Source: Pseudomonas tohonis | Lineage (GTDB): Bacteria > Pseudomonadota > Gammaproteobacteria > Pseudomonadales > Pseudomonadaceae | Direction of reading: 5' to 3' | Length of the DNA stretch: 64,000 bases | Assembly: GCF_012767755.2 (NCBI RefSeq) | Contig: NZ_AP023189.1 | Span: 496,001-560,000, forward strand | In this document: one piece after another, positions 13,050 to 36,201 of the stretch | Numbering within the stretch: the first letter of the stretch is position 1 | How the letters are laid out: each line of letters begins with the position of its first letter | Notes under the pieces: model-generated | Seen by the model: only the letters and a program-made list of their open reading frames with translations | What the model was told of the DNA's origin: nothing | The model's database searches: none | Translations under genes and position numbers: made by a program

Positions 13050-13529
13050 GTGATCGATCCCGATGGTTTCCGCCCCAATGTCGGCATCATTCTCGCCAAT
13101 GATGCCGGGCAGGTGCTTTGGGCTCGGCGTATCAACCAGGATGCCTGGCAGTTCCCCCAGGGAGGCATCAACCCCCGCGAGACGCCGGAAGAGGCGCTGT
13201 TCCGCGAGCTGAACGAGGAAGTCGGTCTCGAGGAGCGGGATGTGAAAATACTTGCATGCACCCGGGGCTGGTTGCGCTATCGTCTGCCGCAGCGTCTGGT
13301 GCGGACCCACAGCCAACCCCTGTGCATCGGGCAGAAACAGAAATGGTTCCTGCTGCGCCTGCAGTCGGATGAGAACCGGGTACGCATGGACCTGACCGGC
13401 AAGCCCGAGTTCGATGGCTGGCGTTGGGTCAGCTACTGGTATCCGCTGGGGCAGGTCGTGACCTTCAAGCGAGAAGTCTACCGCCGTGCCCTCAAGGAAT
13501 TAGCCCCGCGCCTGCTGGCGCAAGACTGA
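13050..13529 (+). CDS. rppH: RNA pyrophosphohydrolase (Nudix)
   Basis: A 159-residue Nudix enzyme that removes pyrophosphate from mRNA 5' ends and so starts RNase E-dependent decay. The Nudix box is complete around residues 38-60 (GG start, REL then EEVG). The RppH-specific regions [12 protein letters not shown] and [10 protein letters not shown] are present. The start is a GTG at 13050 giving (M)[11 protein letters not shown], the standard family N-terminus; upstream in-frame sequence shows no homology. ptsP follows after 22 bases, the usual rppH-ptsP pair. Confidence 0.96.
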
Positions 13530-33862: not shown

Positions 33863-34729
33863 ATGGCCCAAGAACTTTCAGCAGAACAGATTCGCCATTT
33901 CCTCCAGGGCATCAGCGTGCCGCCCCAGCCGCAGATCATGGTCGACCTGCAGATGGAGCAGGTCATGCCCAGCCCCGACCTGCGCACCATCGCCAAGCTC
34001 ATCAGCCAGGACCCGGGCCTGTCGGGTGCACTGCTGAAGATCGTCAACTCGCCGTTCTACGGGCTGACCAATCGCATCGCCTCGATCCAGCAGGCGGTCA
34101 ACCTGCTGGGCTGCAATACGGTGATCAACCTGATCAACGCGCAGTCGATCAAGGGCGAGATGACCGACGAGACCATCGTCACCCTCAACCGCTTCTGGGA
34201 CACCGCCCAGGACGTGGCCATGACCTGCCTGACCCTGGCCAAGCGCATCGGCCACCAGCAGGCGGACGAGGCCTACGCGCTGGGGCTGTTCCACAACTGC
34301 GGCATCCCGCTGATGCTCAAGCGCTTCCCGGACTACATGACGGTGCTGGAGGAGGCCTATGCCAGTGCCAACGCCGAGCGCCGCATCGTCGACACCGAGA
34401 ACCGCCTGCTCAATACCAACCACGCGGTGGTGGGCTACTTCACCGCGCGCTCCTGGCGCCTGCCGGAGCACCTCTGCGAGGCCATCGCCAACCACCACAA
34501 CGCGCTGTCGATCTTCAGCGACGACTCCGGGCGCGATGCACCGCTGAAGACGCTGCTGGCGATCCTGAAGATGGCCGAGCACGTCTGCGCCTCGCACCTG
34601 GTGCTGGGCAACCAGGCCGATGACCACGAGTGGAACAGCGTCAGGGCGCTGGTGCTCGACTACGTCGGCCTCTCGGAGTACGACTTCGAGAACCTCAAGG
34701 AAAGCATCCGCGAACTGGGCGCCCACTGA
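33863..34729 (+). CDS. HDOD domain signalling protein
   Basis: A 288-residue cytoplasmic protein consisting almost wholly of an HDOD domain (about 20-220). Conserved stretches are ISQDPGLSGALLKIVNSPFYG (split; about 50-70), IQQAVNLLG near 78-86, and the degenerate HD-type helix GLFHNCGIPLMLKRFP. HDOD proteins act in signalling without usually retaining HD phosphohydrolase activity. mutM begins about 30 bases downstream on the same strand. Confidence 0.9.
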   Translation: MAQELSAEQIRHFLQGISVPPQPQIMVDLQMEQVMPSPDLRTIAKLISQDPGLSGALLKIVNSPFYGLTNRIASIQQAVNLLGCNTVINLINAQSIKGEMTDETIVTLNRFWDTAQDVAMTCLTLAKRIGHQQADEAYALGLFHNCGIPLMLKRFPDYMTVLEEAYASANAERRIVDTENRLLNTNHAVVGYFTARSWRLPEHLCEAIANHHNALSIFSDDSGRDAPLKTLLAILKMAEHVCASHLVLGNQADDHEWNSVRALVLDYVGLSEYDFENLKESIRELGAH

Positions 34730-34759
34730 TCGCCCGCAACGCTGCACGTCGAGACATCC

Positions 34760-35572
34760 AGGCCTGAATTACCCGAAGTCGAAACCACGCGGCGGGGCAT
34801 CGCGCCCTACCTCGAGGGCCAGCGCGTGAGCCGCGTGGTGGTGCGTGAGCGCCGCCTGCGCTGGCCCATCCCGGAGGACCTGGACGTGCGCCTGTCCGGC
34901 CAGCGTTTCGTGGTCGTCGAGCGCCGCGCCAAGTACCTGCTGCTGCAGGCCGAGGCGGGCACGCTGATCAGCCACCTGGGCATGTCCGGCAACCTGCGCC
35001 TGGTGGAAACGGGGACGCTGGCGGCCAAGCACGAGCATGTGGATATCGAGCTGGAGTCGGGCCTGGCGCTGCGCTACACCGACCCGCGCCGCTTCGGCGC
35101 GCTGCTATGGAGCCCGGACCCGCACAACCACGAATTGCTGCGCAACCTCGGCCCCGAGCCGCTGACGGACCTGTTCGACGGTGACCGCCTGTACCAGCTC
35201 TCCCGCGGGCGCAGCATGGCGGTGAAGCCCTTCATCATGGATAACGCCGTGGTGGTGGGCGTGGGCAACATCTACGCCACCGAGGCGCTGTTCGCCGCCG
35301 GCATCGACCCGCGCCGCGAGGCGGGCAGCGTGTCGCGGGCGCGCTACCTGAGGCTCGCCGAGGAGATCAAGCGCATCCTCGCCCACGCCATCGAGCGCGG
35401 TGGCACCACGCTGCGCGACTTCGTCGGCGGCGACGGCCAGCCGGGCTATTTCCAGCAGGAGCTGTTCGCCTATGGGCGCGGCGGCGAGTTCTGCAAGGTC
35501 TGTGGTTCCACCCTGCGCGAGGTCAAGCTGGGGCAACGGGCGAGTGTCTACTGCCCGCGTTGCCAGCGTTAG
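34760..35572 (+). CDS. mutM: Formamidopyrimidine-DNA glycosylase MutM with start codon changed to AGG
   Basis: The frame encodes a full MutM (about 270 residues): [12 protein letters not shown] at the N-terminus, the lesion-recognition Lys in [17 protein letters not shown], and a C-terminal zinc finger with CKVC and CPRC. The normal start would be ATG immediately before PELPE, but 34760-34762 reads AGG. The in-frame stop at 34727-34729 leaves no ATG, GTG or TTG upstream. The first usable start is a GTG at 34826, which would remove 22 residues including catalytic Pro-1 and Glu-2, abolishing glycosylase/lyase chemistry. Either the base at 34761 is a sequence error (T read as G) or this copy is inactive. 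All downstream sequence looks intact and conserved. Confidence 0.85.
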
Positions 35573-35622: not shown

Positions 35623-36201
35623 ATGTCCGGCAACTACCTGCCCCGCAACGCGGTTGCGGAGGCCATCGGCCATGGGGTCTTCCGGCTCCTGGGCTGGCGC
35701 ATCGAGGGGCAGCTGCCGCCTCTCGACAAGTTCGTGGTGATCGGCGCGCACCACACCTCCAACTGGGATTTCGTGCTGTTCATCGCGGCCAAGTTCATCC
35801 TCCGCCTGAACGCCCGCTGGTTCGGCAAGCACAGCATCTTCCGCTGGCCGTTCGCCGGGCTGATGGAGCGCTGGGGCGGCATTCCCATCCAGCGCCACCT
35901 CAGGCTCAACCAGGTCGAGCAGGCCGTGCAGGCCTTCGCCGAGAACCGCGAATTCATCCTCGTGCTGTCGCCGGAAGGCACGCGCAAGCGGGTGGAGCGC
36001 TGGAGGATGGGCTTCTACCACATCGCCCGTGGCGCGCAGGTCCCGGTGGTGCCGGCGGCACTGGACTACCGCAACCGGCGCATCGTCATCGGCGAGCCGT
36101 TCTGGACCACCGGCGATGCCGCGGCCGATCTGCGCCGCCTGCTGGCGTTCTACCTGCCGTACGAGCCGAAAAAACCCGACTACGCTTTTAACGGCGATTG
36201 A
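35623..36201 (+). CDS. 1-acylglycerol-3-phosphate O-acyltransferase-like (LPLAT) protein
   Basis: A 192-residue acyltransferase of the PlsC superfamily. The catalytic H-x4-D motif is HHTSNWD (about 43-49). The glycerophosphate-binding region reads GGIPIQR near 85-91, and the EGTR motif is at about 118-121 (SPEGTRKRVE). There is no long membrane anchor; the short form resembles the Pseudomonas LPLAT group often found beside mutM. Substrate not assigned. GAAGAGGTGAAGG just before the ATG provides a ribosome site. Confidence 0.88.
   Translation: MSGNYLPRNAVAEAIGHGVFRLLGWRIEGQLPPLDKFVVIGAHHTSNWDFVLFIAAKFILRLNARWFGKHSIFRWPFAGLMERWGGIPIQRHLRLNQVEQAVQAFAENREFILVLSPEGTRKRVERWRMGFYHIARGAQVPVVPAALDYRNRRIVIGEPFWTTGDAAADLRRLLAFYLPYEPKKPDYAFNGD

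Follow-up and report, generated by a model that had tools for sequence, protein, structure and literature searches.

The locus raises the question of whether the mutM (fpg) gene of a Pseudomonas tohonis genome has lost its start codon, and whether such a loss would belong to the organism or to the assembly. The window, a stretch of 64,000 nucleotides (G000:C1:496001-560000), lies in a genome (G000, hereafter this genome) assembled as a single contig of 6,826,062 bases with 100% completeness. In GTDB the group of this genome goes by the name Metapseudomonas. A search of a plasmid collection gave no match.

Sequence of the mutM gene and its 5' end

The 5' end of mutM was re-read from the window sequence. 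From the TGA of the upstream gene (Table 1) the codons run TCG CCC GCA ACG CTG CAC GTC GAG ACA TCC AGG CCT GAA TTA CCC, which places AGG directly before the codon for Pro-1. There is no in-frame ATG, GTG or TTG between this TGA and the conserved PELPEVET motif of mutM, in agreement with the first-pass annotation of the sequence. The codons for Pro-1 and Glu-2, described as the catalytic dyad of Fpg (PMC5422863), are present, and no standard start puts Pro-1 at the N-terminus. A strong Shine-Dalgarno sequence is absent 5' of the AGG, where GAG at 34751-34753 stands alone. The near-cognate codons ACG 34739 and CTG 34742 were rejected as starts, as Pro-1 would stay internal and the frame is shut at the TGA; readthrough of the HDOD gene stop into mutM would likewise leave Pro-1 internal. 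The HDOD gene and mutM (33863-34762) share one frame, with a single TGA followed by ten codons ahead of the AGG, and the spacing from the HDOD stop to mutM is identical in genomes G008 and G009.

The rest of the gene had been described as intact and was found to be so. The frame is open, and the product matched the curated models NF002211 of NCBIfam (341.2 bits, cut-off 212) and TIGR00577 (294.3 bits, cut-off 203.3), with N-terminal, H2TH and zinc-finger domains (PF01149, PF06831 and PF06827) each above the Pfam cut-off. The gene thus shares with the MutM/Fpg proteins of these two models the full domain architecture, the zinc finger, the Pro-1/Glu-2 codons and an end-to-end alignment to Fpg chain 1k82_A, in which Pro-1 lies opposite Pro-1; it differs from them in the missing standard start before Pro-1.

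The first standard start of the frame, GTG 34826, gives an open reading frame of 248 amino acids (to 35572) without mature residues 1-21, confirming the earlier claim that a start at this codon would remove Pro-1 and Glu-2. The same position is GTG in 3 of the 17 same-genus genomes and GTC in the other 14, and the GAGGG that precedes it is GAAGG in all 17. This GAGGG would favor the idea that the 248-residue protein is a real product with a non-catalytic role, for example in DNA binding. We consider that role very improbable: the protein would lack the catalytic pair and the beginning of the N-terminal domain, few same-genus genomes have the GTG, and homologues are full length with a Met start among the 120 matches listed of 7999 scored (119 of 270 amino acids and one of 278).

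Table 1. Positions of the features discussed, given in window coordinates.
Feature	Position	Strand	Remark
Upstream HDOD-domain gene	33863..34729	+	Pfam HDOD 185.1 bits, cut-off 22.9; frame and strand of mutM
TGA stop of the HDOD gene, in frame with mutM	34727..34729	+	Frame shut 11 codons 5' of AGG
mutM start position	34760..34762	+	AGG; ATG start in relatives examined
mutM (fpg), Pro-1 codon to stop	34763..35572	+	269 residues, frame intact, without usable standard start at 5' end
GAGGG, Shine-Dalgarno-like candidate	34814..34818	+	7 nt 5' of GTG 34826; read directly
First standard start codon of mutM frame	34826..34828	+	GTG
Downstream acyltransferase-family gene	35623..36201	+	Pfam Acyltransferase 47.4 bits, cut-off 23

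Start codons in related genomes

The mutM start was read in two sets of relatives and was ATG in all 17 same-genus genomes and in all 80 loci from the genome contig collection (the best 80 of at least 459 confirmed relatives). These sets share five genomes, giving approximately 92 distinct ones, and the counts leave out a duplicate of the G001 site as well as 8 other loci, derived from short partial matches, that the fuzzy motif hit at 2 to 4 mismatches. AGG was therefore not conserved as a start codon in these relatives, of which G008 and G009 are the nearest to this genome (94% over the mutM locus). A pattern search of 398 Pseudomonadaceae genomes gave a T as the middle base before the motif in 389, TG being read among the matches listed, and a non-T base in this genome only. 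The remaining 8 fitted neither start pattern, and six of those eight are less than 90% complete. The best match in the protein collection, P0001, is identical to the mutM product at 268 of 269 residues and has a Met start; it is encoded on a different contig (6,486,270 bases), is the closest relative seen and probably comes from the same species.

As ATG was found in all relatives read, the only non-T match among the 398 genomes was this one and P0001 has a Met start, the AGG looks private to this genome, in line with the first-pass view of a recent change. That view had also treated ATG in close relatives as evidence against a lesion. ATG was indeed seen in every relative read, which fits a private change and leaves a mutation and a base-call error unseparated. 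In the case of a base-call or assembly error the strain would have a standard start and normal MutM, the second most likely reading; the Met start of P0001 one residue away, the ATG of the relatives and the intact remainder of the gene all speak for it.

Assembly accuracy, mutation spectrum and repair genes

The accuracy of the assembly was examined through start codons and broken frames. Among 248 genes aligned three ways over a 400-kb stretch, each with a start that could be aligned for two or more of this genome, G009 and the outgroup G004, mutM was the only start seen lost in this genome. The genes were drawn from G009, so that losses in G009 were invisible to the test, and the 15 apparent losses in G004 may stem from the choice of start or from the alignment. 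In a looser, two-way comparison 25 of 518 genes were flagged, one of them mutM. Of the remaining 24, 21 have a start in common 12 to 59 codons further inside and 3 have no such start within 60 codons; in four of the 24 the G009 codon was ATG. For mutM too a start is shared, 22 codons inward; the looser test alone fails to single it out, and it is the conserved Pro-1 that does.

When genes of G009 were searched for in this genome over approximately 800 kb, 494 were found at 85% identity or more, of which 3 had a stop past codon 40 and 6 had a split frame, while searching in the opposite direction turned up 13 stops and 9 splits among 484 genes. With fewer broken frames than in the reverse search, this genome does not appear broadly corrupt, and a generally poor assembly is unsupported by either the start-loss or the broken-frame counts. 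G009, which has more broken frames over the same stretches, may be the lower-quality assembly. Choosing open reading frames by GC3 was dropped, as it gave many internal stops, and the three-base periodicity of divergence was used instead; on that basis a stop was present in 5 of 277 genes of this genome and 1 frame was split, compared with 17 of 273 and 4 splits in G009.

Two of the six split frames in this genome result from single-base run-length differences, each one base longer than in G009. The two are a G run near 955,160, within a long conserved gene, and an A run near 886,070, within an open reading frame of 139 codons (both in G000:C1, outside the window), and each is either a real change or a run-length error. 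The gene near 955,160 we take to be permease-like. A further split concerns the G009 gene at 602945-606182, which is longer and open in this genome, so the break may lie in G009; the three remaining splits fall in more divergent or 5'-end stretches. One of the 3 stops falls within an arginine-rich stretch that precedes an apparent secretion signal, suggesting an over-long open reading frame. Overall the assembly looks good but imperfect, and may contain some errors given the two run-length splits, which also lend weight to an error at mutM. The change at mutM is a substitution and not an indel, which argues against such an error, as does the lack of any other start loss among the 248 genes, although a handful of errors per genome is still compatible with that result. 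By rough reckoning the scan would miss substitution errors at a frequency below about 1 in 20,000 bases, and thus a base error at the mutM start could have passed through it.

The age of the change was approached through substitutions on the branches leading to this genome and to G009. On the former, 15 synonymous changes and 3 non-synonymous ones, counting the start change, fall in mutM; the G009 branch has 17 and 10, respectively (2 gapped codons were dropped and 2 changes were ambiguous), while the genes of the region have 4374 synonymous and 1634 non-synonymous changes on the branch of this genome. The coding part of mutM is without sign of relaxed constraint, these numbers being small.

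The mutation spectrum covers those sites of one 400-kb stretch that align across three genomes. A real lesion had been predicted to raise G:C>T:A changes. No such excess was visible on the branch of this genome, where they made up 592 of 7544 changes (7.8%) compared with 847 of 9963 (8.5%) on the G009 branch, nor at four-fold sites (205/2953 versus 259/3547). Any loss of mutM is therefore recent; in the spectrum a very young one would go unrecorded, and the missing signature fits such a loss or an error. The share of G:C>C:G changes, which are also reported to be promoted in a PAO1 mutM strain (PMC3676378), was 2624/7544 (34.8%) compared with 3066/9963 (30.8%) on the G009 branch, but was rejected as a mutM signature because the rate per ancestral G:C site was lower on the branch of this genome (0.0135) than on the other (0.0158). 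The change to AGG itself is of the A:T>C:G class, which is reported to be elevated in a strain mutated in mutT rather than in mutM (PMC3676378); mutT is open in this genome. This class was not in excess (254/7544 versus 360/9963), which weighs against a base-call error. Among the other polarised changes, A:T>G:C accounted for 16.7% on the branch of this genome and 10.8% on the G009 branch, and G:C>A:T for 35.4% and 44.3%, respectively.

The genome contains a single match to PF01149 at E <= 0.001, which is mutM itself, and no further match at this threshold that could represent a backup Fpg/Nei gene. If the base is real, the sole MutM would be lost with no backup, as in a GO-system mutator. The mutY, mutT, mutS and mutL genes each score above the cut-off of a curated model, are free of internal stops and have a plausible ATG start; a general background of repair loss was rejected on account of these open genes. 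At 13080-13253 of the window, an open frame of 427 amino acids contains a MutT/Nudix-like match that is weak (39.8 bits against a cut-off of 97.9).

Predicted effect of the AGG codon and comparison with known systems

The mutM start probably became AGG through a single-base change that is recent and private to this strain, leaving a young null or hypomorphic allele. That the base is real, the amount of MutM made and the mutator phenotype we infer from the sequence. Counting against a real start loss are that any assembly can be wrong at a single base and that the mutM-type spectrum signature is missing on the branch of this genome; the latter would also favor an error. In a real start loss, normal initiation at mutM would be lost through the AGG. 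Ribosomes might then start weakly at AGG, yielding small amounts of correctly processed MutM, or alternatively start at GTG 34826, perhaps aided by the GAGGG, and give 248 residues without the catalytic pair. In the null case there would be zero initiation at AGG and any product would lack this pair. The strain would be MutM-null or a strong hypomorph, as expected from the finding of no second Fpg/Nei-family gene, and a mild GO-system mutator, with a leaky AGG allele giving a milder mutator phenotype than a null.

Initiation at AGG would use the initiator fMet-tRNA, and a Met before Pro is normally removed, so that the mature N-terminus would be normal without special processing. The suggestion of a non-AUG start needing special processing is thus unsupported, ordinary Met removal being sufficient. 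Of the first-pass interpretation as a whole, the start loss, the intact gene and the recency of the change held up, whereas the special processing and the G:C>T:A excess did not.

Hecht et al. 2017 reportedly covered all 64 start codons. In E. coli reporters AGG falls within groups of codons that initiate at 0.01-6.5% (GFP) or 0.5-15.7% (lacZ) of ATG (PMC6925171). This activity, together with a following Pro codon suited to Met removal, would allow AGG to be a weak and perhaps regulated start from which low but active MutM is made with Pro-1 as its mature N-terminus. There is a slim chance of this: AGG was seen in no relative examined, so nothing indicates a selected regulatory start, and the GAG upstream is no strong Shine-Dalgarno sequence. 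It is similarly quite unlikely that a working AGG supplies MutM at a few per cent with the right Pro-1 N-terminus, making the strain a tunable mild mutator, reversible by one base, and not a null.

If the preferred reading of a recent start loss is true, the locus would represent a naturally arisen start-codon mutant of mutM at a very early stage, when the coding sequence is still intact and the loss has left no visible mutational trace, and the outcome, null or leaky, would hinge on the efficiency of AGG initiation before a Pro codon. A gene caller could in that case give a shortened MutM without the catalytic pair, the real lesion being at the start. If the base is an error, the locus is a warning about lesions of a single base in finished genomes.

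The matches listed in the literature search contained no paper on a Pseudomonas mutant in the mutM start codon. That P. aeruginosa can lose mutM naturally is already known from LES isolates, which are described with deletions of 4 bp and 58 bp (PMC8190615). As in this genome, mutM is disrupted there in particular isolates of a Pseudomonas-type bacterium, although the lesion is a deletion in the LES isolates and one start-codon base here, known from sequence. A mutM transposon mutant of PAO1 is reported as a mild mutator, with a 22-fold increase for ciprofloxacin resistance and more G:C>T:A and G:C>C:G changes (PMC3676378), the phenotype that would be expected of a null in this genome; the PAO1 mutation is a laboratory insertion, whereas the lesion proposed here may be leaky. 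Initiation codons outside ATG, GTG and TTG, as AGG would be here, are described in S. aureus for infC (AUA), cvfC1 (AUU) and ccpN (AUA) (PMC13009471). Those starts are reported as conserved, with extended Shine-Dalgarno motifs, whereas the AGG occurs in one genome and follows a weak Shine-Dalgarno sequence.
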